Assembly: GCA_029781035.1 (NCBI GenBank)
Contig: JAKOXK010000064.1
Span: 1 to 64,000 of the forward strand
From: Armatimonadota bacterium
GTDB taxonomy: Bacteria > Armatimonadota > Fimbriimonadia > Fimbriimonadales > Fimbriimonadaceae
Reading direction: 5' to 3'
DNA: 64,000 nucleotides
Below the pieces are notes generated by a model. It was not told the DNA's origin. It saw only the letters and a program-made list of their open reading frames with translations, and did no database searches. The translations under genes and the position numbers were made by a program. Positions within the stretch are counted from its first letter, which is position 1; each line of letters begins with the position of its first letter. Shown in pieces: positions 40,789 through 52,103 of the stretch.

Positions 40789-40871
40789 TCAAGAAGGACA
40801 AACGGCCCTGGTAATTGGAGGAATCCCGTACATTTGCCAAGGCCCCGGTGGCGGCTACTGTTTGGTCCACA

Positions 40872-43208
40872 ATGGCGCCGCCGATGTTCTACACGAAGTA
40901 CCCGCACCCCTCCAACTTCTCATTCGTGACGGACTTCGATGCGGCTACTGGAAGGGCTCGAGCGGGGAAGAGGCAGTTCCAGTTTTCAGCCACGAGCCAT
41001 GTGGATGGCTTTTTCCATCTGGCGGCAAGAGATCCGGGGACTTGGCTCCCGAACGTGTCGTTGCTCGAACTCGACGTGCCAGGAACGAGCCCGGACAGCC
41101 GCGTCCGCGTTGGGCCCGGACTGGATCTGGCGTTGCTGGACCAAGCAGGTACGCCTCTTGTTCAGAGTGTCCCAGGGCATGCGTTTGGAGTGTGCGGTGA
41201 GGCATCCATGTTCCTGTTCGAAGTCTCTGACGACGCCCAATTCCTCGGCATGGGTGAGAAGGGTCTTGGTCGCATCGAACTTTCCGGAGTCAGGACCAAG
41301 TTCTGGAACACAGATGTGTGGAGTGACTTCCACTGGTCGCAATGGAAGGATCACCCGGTCGATCCGACCTACTTCTCGACTCCGTACGTAGCGGTAAGGA
41401 CCGGTGGCAAGTGGGTGGGATTTCTCCTTCACAACCCTGGCGTGACGTTCATGGAGACGCCCGGCACAGACCGCACACGTGTCTTCGCCGAATGGCAGCG
41501 GACATCACGCCATCTGATCCTTGGGAGCGAGAATGGCGAACCGAGCCTTTGGATCTTCACGTCCGACGACCTGGCCGGCTTGACGCGCAAGCTCCAGGGA
41601 CTGGTCGGGAAGACTCCTTTGCCCCCCCTGTGGTCCTTGGGATACCACCAGTCACGTTGGGGGTACGGAGGTCAGAAGGACATTTTGGAACTTGACAGGC
41701 AGTTCGCAAAGCACGGCATTCCGTGCACAGCGGTCTGGCTCGACCTGGACTACATGGACGGCGCCCGTGTCTTTCAGGTGGCCCCCAAGCAGTTCCCGGG
41801 CGGGGTAGAAGCGACCGTCTCAAGGCTTGACTCTCGAAGAAGGATCGTCCCCATCCTCGATCCTGGAGTCAAGAGAGAGAACGGCTACCGCGTGTACGAT
41901 GACGGCCATGCCAAAGACGTCTTCTGCCACAACTCGGAGGGAAGCGAGTTCGTCGGAATCGTCTGGCCAGGCGAGACTGTGTTTCCAGACTTCACGCTGG
42001 CCTCGGCCAGAGAATGGTGGTCTGGATATGCCAAGGAGTTCCGTCAGTCGGGATTTGGGGCTGCTTGGGTCGACATGAACGATCCCTCCACTGGTCCAGT
42101 CGATCCCACTGAGATGCTCTTCAACCGTGGTAAGGAGCCACACGCGCTCCACCGCAACCAGTACGCACTGGGCATGCAAATGGCGACGCGGGAGGGCTTC
42201 ATGCTGGCTGAACCGGGTGAACGACCATTCATCCTTTCCCGGTCTGGTTCGACGGGCACGAGCCGGTACTCCGCCGTTTGGACTGGAGACAACGTTTCCA
42301 ACGAGTTCTATCTTCGACAATGTGTCCCGACGACTTTGGGGATGTCGCTCAGTGGAATTCCGTTCAATGGCCCTGACGTGGGCGGCTTTGGTGGCGACGC
42401 CGACGACGAGCTCATGGTCCGGTGGATGCAAGCCTGCCTGCTTTTCCCCTTCTTCCGCAACCACTCGACACTCGAAAGTCGGCGCGAGGAGCCTTGGCAC
42501 TATGCGGCCAGTACGCGCAAACAGCTCGCCCATGCAATCCGTTTGCGTCACCGGTTTCTGCCCTATCTCTACCAACTGTTCATCGGCCAAGAGGAATTGG
42601 GTGATCCTATCGTTAGGCCGCTGATCTACGACTTCGACGATCCCGCTTTGGCCTCGGTCAACGACGAGTTCATGGTTGGGCCCTTCGTGCTTCACGCCCC
42701 TGTGCTCGGTGTAGGCCAGACCGACAGAAACGTGATTCTGCCCGGAAGCGACCCCTGGTACAACCTCAGCACCGGAAAGTGGCTCCCGCCAGGTGAGCAC
42801 CGCCTCGGCGTTCCTCTGGGATCGTCTCCTCTGTTCCTGAGGTCGGGCGCTGTCGTCCCGATCCAACCGGAACTGCCGACTGACAACAGGGTCGACCTGG
42901 CGAACCCCGTCTTGTTGGTGGCTGTACCCCCGTCTTGGATCGGCGAGACCCAGGCCGAATACTGCGCGGACGATGGCCTCACCTTCGACTACCGTAAGGG
43001 TGTCCGGTCAAAGGGTACGGTCAGCGTTAGTGGTGCGACCGCGCGATGGGATCAAACACAGAGCGGCTTTGGATCTCTGCACCCCGTGATCGCTTGGCCG
43101 GTGGGCAGCCCCGTAGAGGTCGTTGGATCCTCGGGCCCCAGTGAGAAACTGGACCTGCAGTTTCTCGGCAGGGCCCTGAAGTGGGAAGCGACCACTCTCT
43201 CCCGCTAG
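40872..43208 (+). CDS. GH31 alpha-glucosidase-type glycoside hydrolase
   Basis: A 778-residue GH31 protein. The nucleophile is in WVDMNDPSTG (about residue 402), with NDP replacing the usual NEP. LWSLGYHQSRWGYGG, VWLDLDYMDG, FILSRSGSTGTSRYSAVWTGD and GPDVGGFGGD are classic GH31 segments. It releases terminal alpha-linked sugars, probably alpha-glucose from maltodextrins given the GH13, LacI and ABC genes downstream. No signal peptide is visible, so it may act in the cytoplasm. The start is uncertain: an ATG at 40872 has no good RBS, and a TTG at 40815 would add 19 residues. Confidence 0.88.
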   Translation: MAPPMFYTKYPHPSNFSFVTDFDAATGRARAGKRQFQFSATSHVDGFFHLAARDPGTWLPNVSLLELDVPGTSPDSRVRVGPGLDLALLDQAGTPLVQSVPGHAFGVCGEASMFLFEVSDDAQFLGMGEKGLGRIELSGVRTKFWNTDVWSDFHWSQWKDHPVDPTYFSTPYVAVRTGGKWVGFLLHNPGVTFMETPGTDRTRVFAEWQRTSRHLILGSENGEPSLWIFTSDDLAGLTRKLQGLVGKTPLPPLWSLGYHQSRWGYGGQKDILELDRQFAKHGIPCTAVWLDLDYMDGARVFQVAPKQFPGGVEATVSRLDSRRRIVPILDPGVKRENGYRVYDDGHAKDVFCHNSEGSEFVGIVWPGETVFPDFTLASAREWWSGYAKEFRQSGFGAAWVDMNDPSTGPVDPTEMLFNRGKEPHALHRNQYALGMQMATREGFMLAEPGERPFILSRSGSTGTSRYSAVWTGDNVSNEFYLRQCVPTTLGMSLSGIPFNGPDVGGFGGDADDELMVRWMQACLLFPFFRNHSTLESRREEPWHYAASTRKQLAHAIRLRHRFLPYLYQLFIGQEELGDPIVRPLIYDFDDPALASVNDEFMVGPFVLHAPVLGVGQTDRNVILPGSDPWYNLSTGKWLPPGEHRLGVPLGSSPLFLRSGAVVPIQPELPTDNRVDLANPVLLVAVPPSWIGETQAEYCADDGLTFDYRKGVRSKGTVSVSGATARWDQTQSGFGSLHPVIAWPVGSPVEVVGSSGPSEKLDLQFLGRALKWEATTLSR

Positions 43209-43354: not shown

Positions 43355-44374
43355 ATGAGGGTCACGCAACAAGACATCGCCCGATTCGCACAGGTTTCAC
43401 AGGCCACAGTCTCCCGTGTCCTGGCTGGCGATGGCCGTGTTGAACCGGACATCAGGCAAAAGGTGCTCGAGGCGATCGAGCAGCACAACTACCAGCCAGA
43501 TGTGCGTGCCCGGTCGCTTCGGACTCAGTCTACGGGTCTGATCGGTCTGGCTGTCAAACGCCCCCATGGAGGTCTCGATGGCGATCCCTTCTACACGAGT
43601 CTGATCTCTGAGATTCTGGATGGGCTTGAGGACACCGAGTACCACTTGTGCATCGAGACTGTTCCAGAGGGCCCCGACCAGTTTGAGGCCTACGACGAAC
43701 TTCTCCGCACTCGTCGCGTCGACGGTCTTGTCCTCGTGGAGTCGGAAGCCGACGATGAGCGGTTAGAGCTTCTCCAGCGCGACCGGTTTCCCTTTGTCCT
43801 CATCGGCAATCCCATGGGTCACAGGGTCTGGTCCGTCGACAACGACAATGTCTATGCGGGACAGATCGCGACGCAACACCTGTTCGAAAGCGGATACCGT
43901 AAGGTGGGATTCATCGCGGGCCGCCATGGGGTGACTGTCAGTGAAGACCGGATTGAAGGCTACACGCGCATTGTCAACCAATTCGAAAGCGAGCCCATGG
44001 TGTGGCACTCGGACTTCGGACTTGAGGCTGCCCGCGACGTTGCGCTCTTAGCCTTGTCCGGCAAAGACGCTCCAGAAGCCATGGTGGTGCTGGACGACTA
44101 CATGGCAATGGGTGTGGTCGTCGCGTCGAGGATGCTGGGGATCCGGATTCCGCAAGACCTTGGGCTCGTCAGCTTCAACGACAGCAACCTTTGCCTTGTC
44201 TTGGAGTGCGGTCTCTCCTCGGTCAGCCTCGATATACCGCGACTAGTGCGAACCGCCCTTTCCACACTCCTGCACTTGACTGGTTCCAAAGAGCTCGTCG
44301 AACCCAAGCGCGTGGTCGTTCCTTGCTTCCTGCGTGTTCGTGGCTCATCGATCCGTACGGGGGGGTTGCTTTGA
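43355..44374 (+). CDS. LacI-family transcriptional regulator
   Basis: A 339-residue repressor: N-terminal helix-turn-helix (TQQDIARFAQVSQATVSRVL, residues about 4-23), hinge helix (PDVRARSLRT) and a periplasmic-binding-protein-like effector domain (GLIGLAVKRP ... AMVVLDDYMAMGVVVASRML ... LGLVSFND). It probably senses an alpha-glucan oligosaccharide and controls the GH31 and lacI-GH13-ABC transcripts through GAATACGTATTC sites. The effector is unknown. The GH13 gene overlaps its stop codon (TTGA). Confidence 0.9.
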   Translation: MRVTQQDIARFAQVSQATVSRVLAGDGRVEPDIRQKVLEAIEQHNYQPDVRARSLRTQSTGLIGLAVKRPHGGLDGDPFYTSLISEILDGLEDTEYHLCIETVPEGPDQFEAYDELLRTRRVDGLVLVESEADDERLELLQRDRFPFVLIGNPMGHRVWSVDNDNVYAGQIATQHLFESGYRKVGFIAGRHGVTVSEDRIEGYTRIVNQFESEPMVWHSDFGLEAARDVALLALSGKDAPEAMVVLDDYMAMGVVVASRMLGIRIPQDLGLVSFNDSNLCLVLECGLSSVSLDIPRLVRTALSTLLHLTGSKELVEPKRVVVPCFLRVRGSSIRTGGLL

Positions 44375-46575
44375 TCGCTCTCTTGGGTGCGGCGATGGCT
44401 CTCGCTGAGGCGAATCCGGGACACGTGTTCCGCTACAGCGCCCCAGCGGGAACCCGGTCCGTCTGCCTCGCGGGCAGCTTCAACAACTGGAGCAAGGAGG
44501 CCAACCCCATGCGCTTGCAGGCCGATGGCACGACTTGGAGCATCGATCTGCCCCTCGCGCCTGGGAAGTTCCAGTACAAGTTTGTCGTCAACGGTGAGAC
44601 CTGGATCACGGATCCGGGCGCACCGTCCCTGGACGATGGCAACGGCAACACGAACTCGGTCGTAATCATCTTTCCCCCGGGATATGACGTGCCAGCTCGA
44701 AAGGGCGACGGCACGATCACCTACGGTGTCGTCAACCATTTACAGACGCTTCCAGCTCTCAATTGGGACCGAGGCTGGTTGACTCTGACCCTCCAGGCGC
44801 GGCCAAACGACGTGGAGCGCGTGTCGGTCGACATTCAGGTCGGAACGGGCAAGCGTCAGAAGGTCGTTATGGCGGACCGCGGAGGCGACGAGTTTACGAC
44901 GAATTATGTCGCTTCCATTCCATGGAACCGGACTGAGCCCGTCCGATATGACTTTGAACTGGATGACGGTGGGCGAGGACCAGGCATCTACGATCGGTCG
45001 GGCTTTTGGTACCAGAAGGAGTCGGACGGCACGTCGGCGGACGAGCGGTTCGTCCTTGATCCCAAGACATACCACCCGTTCGTGCCGCCAACCTGGGTTC
45101 AGAAGAGCTTCATCTATCAGATCTTTCCAGACAGGTTTGCCGACGGGGACAAGAGCAATGATCCACCCGGGACGGTTCCTTGGGACAGCAAGCCCACTTG
45201 GTACACGTGGTTTGGAGGAGACTTCGCCGGTGTTCGGGAGCACTTGGACTATCTGAAGAGCCTAGGTGCCGACTGTGTGTACTTCAACCCCATCTTTGAA
45301 GGGCCGAGCAATCACCGGTACGAAGCGACCGATTACAAGCGTGTCGATCACAGACTAGGGACTAACGCCGAGTTCGCCAGCCTGACCAAGAGGATGAGCG
45401 ACGAGGGCATCCGGGTCGTGCTGGACGGAGTGTTCAACCACACCGCGACCGACTTCTTCGCTTTCGCTGACCTCCTCAAGAACCAGCAGAAGTCCCGTTA
45501 CCTCGACTGGTACCACGTCACCTCGTTCCCCGTCGAGGTCAAGATGCCGCCACCCTACGTCGCTTGGTTCGGGTTCGCCTCGATGCCCAAACTGAACCAC
45601 GAGAACCCTGCCGTCCGTGACTACCTGCTGAGCGTTCCCGACTTCTGGGGCAAGACGGCCACCATCGCGGGTTGGCGTCTGGACGTCCCCAACGAACTGC
45701 CGTTCGACTTCTGGCCCTTGTTCCGGAGGCACATCAAGGCCTTTGGACAAGACAAGTGGATCGTCGGTGAGATTTGGGGCGACGGTTCACCATGGCTGAA
45801 GGGAGACATGTTCGACTCCGTGATGAACTACCAGTTCCGCAACGCGGTATTGGCGTTTGTGGCTCACGGAACCGCGTCTCCCAGCCAGTACTGGAGCGAC
45901 CTCATGCGTGTGGAAGACGCGTATGGCACCCAGGTCTCTCGGAACATGATGAACCTGATCAGTTCGCACGATGTCCCGCGGATCCTGACCGAGTGCAGTG
46001 GTGACGCCCGGTTGGCTCGAATGGCCGCGATGCTCCAGTTCACGTGGGTTGGAGCACCCAGCGTTTACTACGGCGATGAACTGGGCATGGAGGGCGCCAA
46101 GGATCCCGACAATCGGCGAGGTATGCGTTGGGATCTCGTGACTGCGAACAACCCGTTCCTTCTCACGTACAAGGCGTTGTCTCAGCTGCGAGCGGGTGTC
46201 CCGGCCCTCACCGAGGGCGACCCGGCCCTGATCGCCACAGACGACAAGCGCGGTCTCCTCGTCTTTCGACGCGAGTTTGCGAACCAGTGGGCAGTTGTCG
46301 GCGTGAACCGAAGCCTGGAAAAGCAGGAGATCCACGTGGCGCTGAAGGGGGCGGCCAAGGTTTGGCGAGCCTGGAACGGCGCCCAATCAGTGCAGTTCAA
46401 AAACGAGGCCCAACCGTCTGCAGGTGGCCAAGTCACCGTCACCGTCGAGCCCTTGTCGATCGTCGTTCTAACGCCAAAGGAACAGGCTGCGGCGCAATCC
46501 AGCATGCTTTCCGAATCTCGTCACTCGTCACTCGTGACTTCCCACTTATCCCATCCCATAGGTGCACATCCATGA
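44371..46575 (+). CDS. GH13 alpha-amylase-type enzyme with N-terminal CBM48-like domain
   Basis: A 734-residue protein. An E-set/CBM48-like domain ([28 protein letters not shown]) is followed by a linker domain and a GH13 barrel. Catalytic residues: Asp in [10 protein letters not shown] (about 436), Glu in IVGEIWGDG (about 468) and the transition-state Asp in SSHDVPRI (about 532). The layout matches neopullulanase/cyclomaltodextrinase-type enzymes. The TTG at 44371 overlaps the lacI TGA and yields a short hydrophobic start ([11 protein letters not shown]) that may be an export signal; an ATG at 44395 is the alternative. Its stop overlaps the pseudopilin start (ATGA). Confidence 0.88.
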
Positions 46576-47519
46576 ATAACTACCGCCGATCGGCTTTTAC
46601 CCTGATCGAGCTCCTCGTCGTCATCGCGATCATCGCCATCCTTGCGGCGATCCTGTTCCCGGTGTTTGCCCAGGCCAAGGTCGCCGCGAAAAAGGCCGTG
46701 GCCATTTCGAACATGAAGCAACTCGGCATGGCCGTCATGCTTTACGCAGAGAACGAGGACGACGCGGCACCGCCCCGCTATCGTCTCAACTGCGGTCCTC
46801 GCACGAGCGGCGGCGATCCATCCGATGGCATGAGCTGGGACATTTTGATCCAGCCGTTCACGAAGAGCTACCAGATCATCATGTCGAACATGGACAGCGG
46901 GCCCCTCTATCCCAGCCCGTTCGGCAGCGTGAGACGCAGCTACGGTGGTGCCGCCAACTTCTTCCGGGGCTATCAGGCCTGTGCGCAATACAACCAAAAA
47001 GCGGCTTATTCGACTCCGCCTATGACCTACTTCCCGCAACCGGCGGACACGGTCATGATCGGCGAAGAGCGGATGCTCAACACCAAGGGCGATCCGACCA
47101 AGTATTGGGCCAGCATGGATTGGGCGGCCAAGACGGGAACGCCTGGCTATTACAACGCTGTGTTCGAGGACACTCGCAACATCAACCTGGGCGGCGACGG
47201 CTCCACCAACTGTGTGCCCAACAAGATCTGCAAGTCGTGGTGCTATATCAACAACGACTACGCCGAAGGTTCCGTGTGGGCCATGGCCGATGGTCATGCC
47301 ACCTACAGAAAGGGAACCGGCAAGACAAGCGACGGATACAACAACGGCACTGAGTTCAAGGGATACGAGCATCGCGCCGGAACCTGGGACATCGATGGCG
47401 AGAACAACCTCCAGTGGACTGGCGGTATGTCTTGTATGGCTTGGGACACTCAACCTGACCCCAACCACTACAACCGCAACTGCGCGGTTCCCGGTGAAAC
47501 GACAGTCCAAGGGCAATGA
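46572..47519 (+). CDS. Type II/IV pseudopilin-like protein with prepilin cleavage motif
   Basis: A 315-residue protein with an N-terminal class III signal ([20 protein letters not shown]), cleaved before Phe by prepilin peptidase, and a long globular domain ending near [15 protein letters not shown], a feature of the large DUF1559-like pseudopilins of Planctomycetes and Armatimonadota. These are usually abundant paralogues of unknown role, thought to be surface or secretion components. Here it is embedded in the glycan operon, with ATGA overlaps to both the GH13 gene and the next gene, so it should be expressed with the sugar-uptake proteins. Confidence 0.88.
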
Positions 47520-47803
47520 AACGCAATGTCCCGACTGTGCTGTTGGTCGTGGTGGGGGCGGTCATCGCTGCTGGGCTGATCTTCTTCGGCATCAAGTCAC
47601 TGGGCTCGGATTCGACGAGGCCCTCGCCAGAGCTGGAGAAATCGATGGACGACTTCCGCTCTCAGAACGCACAGAAGACCGGCGGCACAGTCGACGACCA
47701 GAGTGGCGCACCGGTCGACTCTCGTTCGGGCGGACAGGCGCATTCTGGTTCGAACGAACGTCAGGAAAACGACGAGATGAAGGCGCGCAACGCTGGGCAC
47801 TAG
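47516..47803 (+). CDS. Small single-pass membrane protein of unknown function
   Basis: A 95-residue protein with one membrane helix ([22 protein letters not shown], residues about 5-26) followed by a hydrophilic, Ser/Gly/Gln-rich tail with no recognised fold. It starts with ATG inside the stop of the pseudopilin gene (ATGA), and small proteins like this often follow DUF1559-like pseudopilins. A role in assembling or anchoring that pilin is a guess from position. Confidence 0.6.
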
Positions 47804-47833: not shown

Positions 47834-50353
47834 ATGCCTGAATGGAGCCGCCAGACCCCAAGCTCCGTGGTCTTGCGGCTCTTTCCTTCTCGACTCGTCA
47901 GAGCAAGGATGCTGTGCATCGGCCACAATGAAAGCGCATTGCGCTTTTTGAGTCTGTTCCTTGCGACGACGCTTGGCACGGCGGCCTTCGCTGAGAAGTC
48001 CATCGTGAACGTCTGGGGCCTGACTCCCGGCCCCGACAGCAAAGGCCAGGAAGCGGTCATCTCCGCTTTCGAGCGTCTCAACCCCGACCTGAAGATCAAG
48101 TCGACAAAGATGGGGGCAGGCGACATGAACCCCCAGAAACTGCTGACAGCGATTGTTGGCAAGGTTCCGCCGGACGTCATTGCGCAGGACCGCTTCAGTC
48201 TCAGCGACTGGGCAAGCCGGGGCGCATTCCGCCCGCTCGACGATCTCATCGCACGTGACCGCGGCAAAGATCCACTCTGTCCTGTGCCCGAGCAGTACTA
48301 CGCTCCGGCTTGGAAGGAGACTCAGTACGACGGCAAGACCTATGGAATACCGAGTGGGGCCGACGACCGCATCCTGTACTGGAACCGCACCATCTTTCAA
48401 AGGCACGCTGAGGAACTGCGCGAGGCAGGCCTGGATCCAACCCGGCCACCGCGCACATGGAGCGAAACGCTCGCCTACGCCAAGATCCTAACGGAACGCG
48501 ACAAACGGGGCAACCTCGTCACTGCGGGATTCATCCCCAACTGGGGCAACTCTTGGCTGTATCTTTTCGCGTTCCAAATGGACGCCAGCTTCATGTCGGC
48601 TGATGGAACCAGGTGCACGCTCGACTCTCCCCAGGCCGAGACGGCGCTGCAGTTCATGGTCGACGGCTACAAGATCCTCGGTGGTTATGACCGGGCCCAG
48701 CAGTTCCAAAGCGGGTTTCTGAGTAACGAGAACGACCCCTTCATCCTCGGAAAAGTCGCGATGAAGATCGACGGGGACTGGATCCTTTCTTCGCTCAGCC
48801 GGTACGGTCCCGACCTTGACTTTGGTGTCGGGCCTCCGCCAGTGCCGGATGACCGTTACTACCATCGGGGCGCCTTCGCCGACGACAAGGACACCTTTGT
48901 CACGTGGATCGGTGGTTACAGCTACGCGATACCAACCGGGGCCAAGAACCTCGATGGGGCGTGGAGGTTCATTAAGTTCTTGGCGAGCAAAGAAGCACGG
49001 CTGACCGAGGCCAAGGCCCAGGCTAACTACGATCGCAGTCGCGGCCGAGAGTACGTGCCGCGGATCCAAGCGAACCGTGAAGCCAATCTTGCGCTGCTTG
49101 AGCAGTTCTCGCCCAAGAACCCCAACTTTGCGGCCGCGCTCGCCATGCACGTCAAGCTCGCCGACGTCGGCCGGATCCGCCCGCCGACCGTGGTCGGGCA
49201 GACACTGTGGTCGAAACATGTCGAAGCACTCGAGGCGGCGTGCAAGCTGGAGAAGACACCGAAGCAGGCCCTGCTGGACAGCCAAGCCGCCGTCCAACGG
49301 GAGCTCGACGCCGATCTCGAGTACAGCCACCTCAAGCCGTTCAGCTTCGGACCGCCGACATTCGGTTGCTGCGCTCTCGGTCTGGGGTTGCTCGGATGGT
49401 CCGTCTGGTCGTTCCGGCGCAAGAAGCTGGGTCGGCTAGCGAGGAGCGAGGCGTTCTGGGCGTACCTCCTGATCTCGCCGTGGGCGATCGGCTTTCTAGT
49501 GTTCACCCTAGGGCCCATGATCGCCTCGATCTTCATGAGCTTCACGCAATACAACGTCTTGAGCGAGCCGCGGGCTGTCGGACTAGGCAACTACACCGAC
49601 ATGTTCGGCGCTGACCGTGAAAGCGTCCTCAAGGCGTTTGGTAACGTATTCTATCTGACCGGGATTGGCGTCCCGCTCGGCATCGTCACTGGACTGTCGG
49701 TGGCCCTGTTGCTGAACACCTCGATCCGAGGCATCCGGTTCTATCGGACTGTTTTCTACATGCCGGCGATCGTTCCCGCCATCGCGAGCGCAGTCCTTTG
49801 GAGCTGGGTTCTCAGTGGCGACCCCAACAAGGGCCTCATCAACTCGCTCTGGCAAGAGACGATCACGAACTGGACGCATGTCGCACCCCCCGGCTGGTTT
49901 CAGGTGGCTGACTGGTCGAAGCCGGGCCTGATCCTCATGGGAGTTTGGGGCGCGGGCGGCGGCATGATCCTTTGGTTGGCCGGGCTCAAAGGAGTGCCAG
50001 GACAACTCTACGAAGCGGCTCATATCGATGGTGCCAACGCCTGGCAGCAGTTCTGGAAAGTCACTCTGCCGATGCTCAGTCCCATTGTCTTCTTCAATTG
50101 CGTCACGGGGCTGATCGGAGCGATCCAGATTTTCGACCAGGTCTACGTCTTCATGGGTCCGGACACCGGGCTGGCGGGGCCCTCGAACTCGATGCTGACC
50201 CCTGTCGTCTACTTGTTCCAGCAGGCGTTTCGGTTCTTCAAGCTCGGATACGCGTCAGCGCTCGCCTGGTTCGTCTTCATCGTCATCCTCGCTTTGACCC
50301 TCCTGCAATTCAGACTGTCGAAGAAGTGGGTCTATGTGGAGGCCGACAAGTGA
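47834..50353 (+). CDS. Fusion of sugar ABC transporter substrate-binding protein and permease (MalF/UgpA type)
   Basis: An 839-residue protein joining two normally separate subunits. After a signal/anchor region (LRFLSLFLATTLGTAAFA, about residues 36-53) comes a family 1 solute-binding domain (IVNVWGLTPGPDSKGQEAVI ... FVTWIGGYSYAIPTG ... AWRFIKFLASKEARLTEA) to about residue 500. A membrane helix (FGCCALGLGLLGWSVW) leads into a binding-protein-dependent permease with LISPWAIGFLVFTLGP and the EAA loop EAAHIDGANAWQQFWKVTLP (about 729). Binding protein and channel are thus tethered, with the binding domain outside. AAAGGA precedes the ATG. The second permease follows; no ATPase gene is present. 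Confidence 0.88.
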   Translation: MPEWSRQTPSSVVLRLFPSRLVRARMLCIGHNESALRFLSLFLATTLGTAAFAEKSIVNVWGLTPGPDSKGQEAVISAFERLNPDLKIKSTKMGAGDMNPQKLLTAIVGKVPPDVIAQDRFSLSDWASRGAFRPLDDLIARDRGKDPLCPVPEQYYAPAWKETQYDGKTYGIPSGADDRILYWNRTIFQRHAEELREAGLDPTRPPRTWSETLAYAKILTERDKRGNLVTAGFIPNWGNSWLYLFAFQMDASFMSADGTRCTLDSPQAETALQFMVDGYKILGGYDRAQQFQSGFLSNENDPFILGKVAMKIDGDWILSSLSRYGPDLDFGVGPPPVPDDRYYHRGAFADDKDTFVTWIGGYSYAIPTGAKNLDGAWRFIKFLASKEARLTEAKAQANYDRSRGREYVPRIQANREANLALLEQFSPKNPNFAAALAMHVKLADVGRIRPPTVVGQTLWSKHVEALEAACKLEKTPKQALLDSQAAVQRELDADLEYSHLKPFSFGPPTFGCCALGLGLLGWSVWSFRRKKLGRLARSEAFWAYLLISPWAIGFLVFTLGPMIASIFMSFTQYNVLSEPRAVGLGNYTDMFGADRESVLKAFGNVFYLTGIGVPLGIVTGLSVALLLNTSIRGIRFYRTVFYMPAIVPAIASAVLWSWVLSGDPNKGLINSLWQETITNWTHVAPPGWFQVADWSKPGLILMGVWGAGGGMILWLAGLKGVPGQLYEAAHIDGANAWQQFWKVTLPMLSPIVFFNCVTGLIGAIQIFDQVYVFMGPDTGLAGPSNSMLTPVVYLFQQAFRFFKLGYASALAWFVFIVILALTLLQFRLSKKWVYVEADK

Positions 50354-50393: not shown

Positions 50394-52103
50394 ATGAAAG
50401 AGGGGATCCACGCACTCGCAGCCCTCATGTTCTGGGCAGGGATCGTGCTCGGTCTGCGGGGCTTGCTGCTCGCGGCCAGGTTGATCTTCAAGCCGCCAGG
50501 GATGGACAGGCACGCTACTGCCGTTGGCCTGGGCTGGAGCATGGGTCTCGGCGGGGCCGGGATTCTGATCGGCGAAGGGCTCTTCCCACCTCATGGGCTG
50601 GGGATCCCCGTCGCGTGGCCAGCTCTGGCAGTCCAAGTCTGGCTCTCGGTCTTCTGTGCGATCGTCGCCCTCGTCACTTTCTTTCAGGCCGTGAGCGGCA
50701 GTCGGGAAAGCCGTCGTTGGCTCGTGCCGGTTCTTTGGGCGGCGGCGTCCGCAGGCTGTTGGCTCCTGCCTCGGGCCAATCCCAAACCGGTCGAGTTCCT
50801 GACGGGGCATATCTTCATGAGCCCCTCGAGTCTCGGTGCCGTCGCCACCCTTGCTGTGGCGGCCGTGACCGCCATCTCGTTGGCCTCGAGGTCGGCCCGG
50901 GCGAAGGGCATCGTGGCCACCGTCGCCACCCAACTTGGACTCCTCGTCGGTTGCGTCGTCTTCGGTCTCCCCTTCCTCTTCCTCCTTGTCACGAGTTTCA
51001 AAGAAGACCAAGACATGTCCAGCCCGCACGGCATCGTGTGGATTCCGCGAGTCAAGCAGACCGCGCCGGTCCTCGACCCTGAGAGCCCTTACTACGAGGC
51101 GCCGTACAAAGGCATGACGGTGCAGGCAGACCTGGAGAAAGCGAATCCCGACGGGACGCTGACCCTCCGCATCGCCCATCCGCTTTACTTCGGAGGCTTC
51201 ACCTTCAACGTACCCAAGGCCCAAGCCAAGCAGATCCCACGGGACATGGAACTCGTGACCGCCAAGCTGGACGGCCAGGATGTCGAAGGCGTCATCTTCC
51301 AAAAGCTCCCCGACGGCAGCCAAGACGTCGAGATCCTCAAGCCCGTGTCCATGAAGGGACAGCGCCACACTTTCGCTCCCAAAACCACCGCTTTTGTCCG
51401 TCCTATGAGCCTGCGCTGGAAGAACTATGTCGAGGCGCTCGAATACCTGCCGCCCGAGGCCGACTACGGCTGGGTCTACCTCCGCAACACGCTCTGGCTC
51501 GTCGTCATGAACGTCCTCGGAACGCTCGTCTCGTGCAGCCTGGTCGCCTACGCATTCGCGAGGCTGCGGTTCCCCGGCCGGGACGTCCTTTTCAAGATCA
51601 TGCTCAGCACCATGATGCTGCCCGCGGCGGTCACGCTCCTCCCCCAGTTCCTCATCTTCCGCTCGTTCGGGTGGATCGACTCGCTCAAGCCGATGTGGGT
51701 CACCGCTTGGTTTGGCTCGGCGTTCATGGTCTTCATGCTCCGCCAGTTTTTCGAGCAGGTGCCCTACGAACTCGAAGACGCCGCCAAGATCGACGGCTGC
51801 AGTTACCTGCGCTCGCTTTGGTCCGTCATGCTCCCCCAGGTCAAGCCGGCCCTGGCGGTCATCGCGATCATGACCTTCATGGGTGCATGGAACAACTTTA
51901 TGGGGCCGCTCGTTTACTCGTCCTCGCCGGAAACCCTGCCGATCTCCTATGCCGTGCAGCTCTTCAACGGCGACCGCAACACCGAGCCGGGCTTGCTCAT
52001 GGCGTTCGTCACGATGTCGCTCGTGCCGGTCGTCGCGCTCTTTGCCTTCGCCCAGCGGTTCTTCATCGAGGGCGCCTCGCTCAGCGGTTTCGGCGGTCGG
52101 TAG
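50394..52103 (+). CDS. Sugar ABC transporter permease (MalG/UgpE type) with N-terminal membrane extension
   Basis: A 569-residue permease, about twice the usual 280. The C-terminal half is standard MalG-type: LRNTLWLVVMNVLGTLVSC, MMLPAAVTLLPQFLIF, and the EAA loop EDAAKIDGCSYLRSLWSVML (about residue 462). The N-terminus adds several helices (about residues 5-200), and an external insertion of roughly 130 residues follows the first core helix (from SFKEDQDMSSPHG to about YVEALEYLP). The ATG at 50394 has GGAAG upstream. It pairs with the fused permease to form the channel; an ATPase (MsmX-like) must come from elsewhere. Confidence 0.87.
   Translation: MKEGIHALAALMFWAGIVLGLRGLLLAARLIFKPPGMDRHATAVGLGWSMGLGGAGILIGEGLFPPHGLGIPVAWPALAVQVWLSVFCAIVALVTFFQAVSGSRESRRWLVPVLWAAASAGCWLLPRANPKPVEFLTGHIFMSPSSLGAVATLAVAAVTAISLASRSARAKGIVATVATQLGLLVGCVVFGLPFLFLLVTSFKEDQDMSSPHGIVWIPRVKQTAPVLDPESPYYEAPYKGMTVQADLEKANPDGTLTLRIAHPLYFGGFTFNVPKAQAKQIPRDMELVTAKLDGQDVEGVIFQKLPDGSQDVEILKPVSMKGQRHTFAPKTTAFVRPMSLRWKNYVEALEYLPPEADYGWVYLRNTLWLVVMNVLGTLVSCSLVAYAFARLRFPGRDVLFKIMLSTMMLPAAVTLLPQFLIFRSFGWIDSLKPMWVTAWFGSAFMVFMLRQFFEQVPYELEDAAKIDGCSYLRSLWSVMLPQVKPALAVIAIMTFMGAWNNFMGPLVYSSSPETLPISYAVQLFNGDRNTEPGLLMAFVTMSLVPVVALFAFAQRFFIEGASLSGFGGR

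Follow-up and report, generated by a model that had tools for sequence, protein, structure and literature searches.

Does the long open frame at positions 47834–50353 of this DNA encode a genuine fusion of a sugar receptor with an ABC transporter channel, and if so, what would the fused protein do? The stretch analyzed here (the window, 64,000 nucleotides) contains on its forward strand a single frame of 839 residues plus a stop codon, with no internal stops in the translation. Receptors and channels of this kind are usually encoded by separate genes, a rule invoked in the sequence-only reading of this DNA and true in general; the two are separate in Sinorhizobium, in Deinococcus, in a bin labeled Bacteroidia, and in other transporters of the window's own genome. 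The fusion described below is nonetheless real and conserved, and its mechanism is clear in outline.

Architecture of the fused gene and its junction

The fused gene comprises the following parts.

47834–47992, + strand: N-terminal region with a Sec-type signal peptide (hydrophobic stretch), likely cleaved after ...TAAFA at residue 53
47993–49330, + strand: family 1 (SBP_bac_1) oligosaccharide-binding domain, residues 54–499, with a long helix (476–499) at its end (Pfam, model, fold alignment)
49331–49348, + strand: short hinge between receptor and membrane, residues 500–505 (model; length constant in family orthologues)
49349–49420, + strand: added transmembrane helix, residues 506–529, predicted to take the chain back to the cytoplasm (model, homologues)
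49415–49450, + strand: basic cytoplasmic loop RRKKLGRLARSE, positive-inside (sequence; preserved in relatives)
49451–50350, + strand: MalF/UgpA-type permease, residues 540–839 (Pfam, NCBIfam, PDB relatives)
50009–50083, + strand: EAA loop, the ATPase coupling motif, residues 726–750 (conservation)

Pfam matches SBP_bac_1 to residues 72–388 (E 3e-32, 113 bits against a cut-off of 26) and BPD_transp_1 to residues 616–831 (E 4e-13, 49.8 bits against a cut-off of 26.4). The nearest NCBIfam models are UgpB for the receptor half and UgpA and MalF for the permease half; SugA, AlgM1, and MalF are the PDB relatives of the permease half, while the receptor half aligns to 4rjz and 4r9g/4r9f with a VIA-align Z of ~36. 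An AlphaFold2 model of the fusion, built on 48 homologues, has a mean pLDDT of 80, with most of the receptor at 85–98 and the junction at 84–91, and falls to 45–60 in parts of residues 630–720 of the permease core. Along the chain, the model places a signal-peptide helix (residues 34–49), the receptor ending in helix 476–499, a hinge of ~6 residues, helix 506–529, helix 534–568 (TM1 of the permease), and the permease core. The open frame, the Pfam domains, and this model bear out the single-chain fusion and the topology first proposed from the letters alone. The start codon at 47834 is preceded by a ribosome-binding sequence that we judged by eye to be good; alignments with most relatives start between residues 18 and 60, and translation could alternatively start at the Met at residue 26.

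The core of a MalF-type permease begins in the cytoplasm. With an N-terminal receptor outside the membrane, one added helix is needed to return the chain to the cytoplasmic side, and the fused homologues that we examined carry a single extra hydrophobic helix, together with a basic loop, directly before permease TM1. The extra membrane helix claimed for the window protein is present in the model as helix 506–529, but its expected hydrophobicity is weak in this copy (mean Kyte-Doolittle below 1.4 over 19 residues); the helix is clearly hydrophobic in most relatives. The claim of an intact EAA loop held without reservation: within Y726 E727 A728 ... D732 G733, the residues E727, A728, D732, and G733 are invariant across the 48 homologues.

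Conservation along the protein is lowest at the junction, with 40–53% identity among family orthologues compared to 60–87% on either side, and its reading frame is kept throughout. A hinge and helix region this variable would tolerate cutting, and the chain might accordingly be cleaved near the hinge to give a free periplasmic receptor, with the added helix left behind on the permease. We consider such processing unlikely, since the hinge plus helix segment has a constant length in the alignment of family orthologues, no conserved cleavage motif is visible at the junction, and a free receptor would gain nothing from obligatory 1:1 co-synthesis with the channel. In addition, a natural MalE-MalF fusion (Licht et al. 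2019, Res Microbiol 170:1-12, pmid 30193862) is cited as a transport-competent supercomplex in the passage of PMC7756565 that refers to it, so that a related protein is reported there to work while fused. We infer the topology given above, a receptor that is tethered and not released, and transport by the fusion; tethering can reasonably be expected, given how short the hinge is in the model, to remove diffusion of the receptor.

Distribution and origin of the fusion

Could a sequencing or assembly error simply have joined two adjacent genes? Distant homologues on Sinorhizobium pSymB lend this idea some substance, as their receptor and permease genes are adjacent and in the same reading frame, and the loss of one stop codon could fuse them. 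The same uninterrupted frame recurs, however, in dozens of independently assembled genomes, two other fusions lie on other contigs of the window genome, and the frame survives a fast-evolving junction. We assign an artefact a negligible probability, the sequencing-error reading being ruled out by the in-frame orthologues. The domain order does recur in relatives: the orthologues are fused, and none was found as two genes with a stop codon at the junction.

Of the two further fusions in the window genome (98 contigs, 96% complete), the one on contig C50 is 51% identical and the one on C35 is 30% identical; unfused transporters lie on contigs C92 and C94. Among 61 near genomes, nearly all of those from the same family have a single-frame orthologue at 52–78% identity, and in-frame orthologues are found in about 30 genera of the window's family. 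Named relatives with the fusion are Fimbriimonadaceae and other Armatimonadota. When 201 genomes drawn across the phylum were surveyed, a single-frame orthologue was present in 31 of 45 Armatimonadota family codes; one representative frame per family (L077–L107) was checked with the receptor and permease profiles, and the one exception, L085, is an orthologous fusion in other respects but has an in-frame TAG within its receptor part. All three records examined in the plasmid collection have receptor and permease as separate genes.

The TAG of L085 (genome G132, contig C1, about 2.18 Mb) may be a sequencing error, the mark of a pseudogene, or a site of read-through. Two further loci sit in unexpected bins: a fused version, 59% identical (L042), lies on a contig binned as Methanoregulaceae that looks like Armatimonadota DNA, and a split version (L059) lies on a contig binned as Bacteroidia. 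Both may be binning errors.

Trees were computed separately for the two halves, with 87 rows for the permease and 78 for the receptor. The window's fused clade is recovered in both (46 rows with an SH-aLRT of 99 for the permease, 45 rows with an SH-aLRT of 100 for the receptor), as expected if the halves travel as one chain, and the two halves appear from these sequences to have been together since early in the phylum. The other fused clades are L003/L116/L135, L108–L113, L114/L115/L129–L134, L128, and L136, and unfused relatives are interleaved among the fused clades. A single clade for all fused permeases was rejected with the full set (p-AU 0.0026) and was not rejected once the long-branched L136 was left out (p-AU 0.061). 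Multiple origins of the fusion are thus likely, if not firm, on these trees.

Loci L117–L121 are unfused members of the same family, with overlapping genes in the unusual order permease-receptor-MalG, and their permeases are nearer to the window's than are those of some other fused types.

The partner permease and the proposed importer

The gene directly 3' of the fusion encodes a second permease, with the following features.

50394–52103, + strand (frame opens at 50334): partner permease of MalG/UgpE type, 569 aa (BPD_transp_1 at 62.8 bits; UgpE/MalG nearest in NCBIfam)
50394–50909, + strand: five added N-terminal transmembrane helices of the partner, residues 1–172 (alignment, model)
51006–51419, + strand: periplasmic insert of the partner between core TM1 and TM2, residues 205–342, with two tandem beta repeats (model strands 223–327)

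The partner occupies this position at almost every orthologue locus, its start codon often overlapping the stop codon of the fusion, and measures about 566–590 residues in the window's family. Its insert, conserved across that whole family, consists of two ~65-residue halves that repeat one another (hhalign probability 97%, E 8e-11). The insert has no Pfam match above cut-off (PriA_3primeBD, at E 0.085, falls far under its own) and no sequence in the PDB matches it below E 1.2, and the fold searches, which used the whole partner model, were a poor test of it. The five-helix extension has no Pfam match at E≤1. Duplication of the partner's membrane-helix pairs was also considered and is not supported (hhalign probability 2%).

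Neither addition extends to all fused systems. Outside the window's family but within its fused clade, the partner frame is mostly 370–580 residues long, with no five-helix match and a weak or absent match to the insert profile, and in the other fused clades the partner is mostly a plain protein of 274–322 residues, which indicates that the insert is no requirement of the fusion. The unfused homologues likewise have a MalG partner of about 275–297 aa with no insert.

Escherichia coli MalF carries a periplasmic domain, P2, and extra N-terminal helices, and P2 sits between core TM1 and TM2. The partner insert thus has the same position as P2, but the extra helices and the periplasmic insert are found on MalF in E. 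coli and on the MalG-type subunit here. One tentative reading, to which we give somewhat less than an even chance, is that Armatimonadota moved oligosaccharide uptake widely to tethered receptors through more than one fusion, and that the MalG-type subunit of the Fimbriimonadaceae evolved a duplicated periplasmic beta domain that would cradle the receptor, mirroring P2 of E. coli MalF.

An orphan MalG-type permease at L137 (1362–3020; contig C50 of the window genome G000, 42.9–44.5 kb) has a periplasmic insert of ~260 residues and lacks a neighboring MalF. It may pair with the orphan fusion L003 on contig C35, which has no MalG beside it.

The genome encodes exactly one MalK-type ATPase (OB_MalK, contig C12), which adjoins no fusion. 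In MsmX- and MsiK-type systems a single ATPase is shared, and by analogy the simplest reading is that the ATPase here would be shared between importers; we infer that it serves the fusion importer. The lack of an adjacent ATPase gene would also suit a membrane sensor that is not a transporter subunit. We find this very improbable, given that the invariant EAA loop contacts the ATPase in this family, that a permease partner adjoins the fusion in the orthologue loci, that Pfam identified no signaling output domain, and that a MalK-type ATPase is encoded elsewhere in the genome. In our view the fusion is likely to supply both the receptor and one channel subunit, out of two, of a CUT1 (MalFGK2-type, type I) oligosaccharide importer, for which a family 1 receptor, an EAA-loop permease, a second subunit of MalG/UgpE type, and a MalK-type ATPase with an OB/TOBE domain are all present.

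In the importer we propose, the signal peptide would export the N-terminal half, and the receptor would fold outside the inner membrane. The added helix would then cross back, letting the permease half start in the cytoplasm as usual and leaving the receptor suspended by the ~6-residue hinge directly above the channel. The fusion would pair with the downstream MalG-type subunit and with the one MalK-type ATPase that the genome encodes, present in two copies. As the partner has no binding domain detectable with Pfam, each complex is predicted to hold one covalently tethered receptor.

This arrangement shares with E. coli MalEFGK2 the receptor fold, the MalF- and MalG-type subunits, the EAA loop, and a MalK-type ATPase encoded in the genome, but E. 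coli MalE is a separate soluble protein whereas the receptor here is fused. Covalent attachment of one or more receptor domains to the translocator is also seen in OpuA and GlnPQ. OpuA is fused in the manner of GlnPQ and is a homodimer. In GlnPQ, likewise a homodimer, the receptors follow the membrane domain at its C-terminal end, attached by a flexible 19-residue linker (PMC8025302), and each complex has at least two receptors; in the window system a single N-terminal receptor, on a hinge of ~6 residues, would belong to a heteromeric complex. The same receptor and permease families are encoded by separate genes in the unfused L059, in Sinorhizobium (L074), in Deinococcus (L076), and in L068 of the window's own genome, with the gene order receptor-permease-MalG in the first three.

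The closest precedent is the MalE-MalF fusion of Licht et al., also cited in a passage of PMC9045158. As described in such citing passages, it resembles the window protein in joining one receptor domain with the same fold to MalF in an importer of the MalFGK2 type, and in having a single receptor per complex. PDB entry 6ffl is titled as the MalE domain from Bdellovibrio bacteriovorus. By fold alignment it is 17% identical to the window receptor and 36th in rank. We take 6ffl and the fusion of Licht et al. to be the same protein. The architecture itself is thus already known; the fusion studied here differs in being common to most of a phylum.

Substrate, gene neighborhood and significance

Three genes for sugar metabolism and its regulation lie upstream of the fusion in the same orientation.

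40815–43208, + strand: GH31 alpha-glucosidase-like enzyme (Pfam, NCBIfam)
43355–44374, + strand: LacI-family regulator (Pfam)
44191–46575, + strand: GH13 cyclomaltodextrinase/maltodextrin-glucosidase-like enzyme with a CBM48-type domain (Pfam, NCBIfam); translation probably begins downstream of 44191

Because GH13, GH31, and LacI genes adjoin the fusion, a maltodextrin, an oligosaccharide of the alpha-glucan type, is favored as the probable substrate and ligand. A tethered importer for another oligosaccharide, such as beta-mannan or mixed plant oligosaccharides, with the GH13 and GH31 genes incidental, is a possible but somewhat unlikely alternative. The nearest solved receptor by sequence, also among the best by fold (4r9f/4r9g), binds manno-oligosaccharides, and the neighboring genes are not conserved beyond close relatives: the GH13/GH31/LacI block is kept only in L026, L047 (where GH31 is downstream), and L049, and a GH13 neighbor is found in 3 of 28 loci, the transporter pair elsewhere having no conserved sugar-enzyme neighbors. 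Against this alternative stand the enzymes and the LacI regulator just upstream, in the same orientation and retained in those three relatives. Other near solved receptors, 4qsd and 4qrz, bind sucrose/maltotriose.

Our literature search found no description of the fusion in Armatimonadota. The new elements are its occurrence across nearly the whole phylum, its probably repeated origin, and its elaborated partner; the distribution, the side-by-side occurrence of fused and unfused versions, and the partner's duplicated periplasmic domain are the less ordinary features of the system. Importers with soluble receptors are believed to owe their affinity and speed to an excess of receptor, and one transporter family that is both fused and unfused in one phylum, often in one genome, offers a direct test of what tethering costs or gains. 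Tallies of binding proteins that seem to be "missing" from Armatimonadota genomes can also mislead; the genome paper of Fimbriimonas ginsengisoli lists 28 substrate-binding proteins versus 68 permeases, and its main text contains neither "fused" nor "maltose" (PMC4072686).

Positions 47518–47802, between a prepilin-like gene and the fusion, encode a small protein (~95 residues) that has a single membrane helix and a charged tail.
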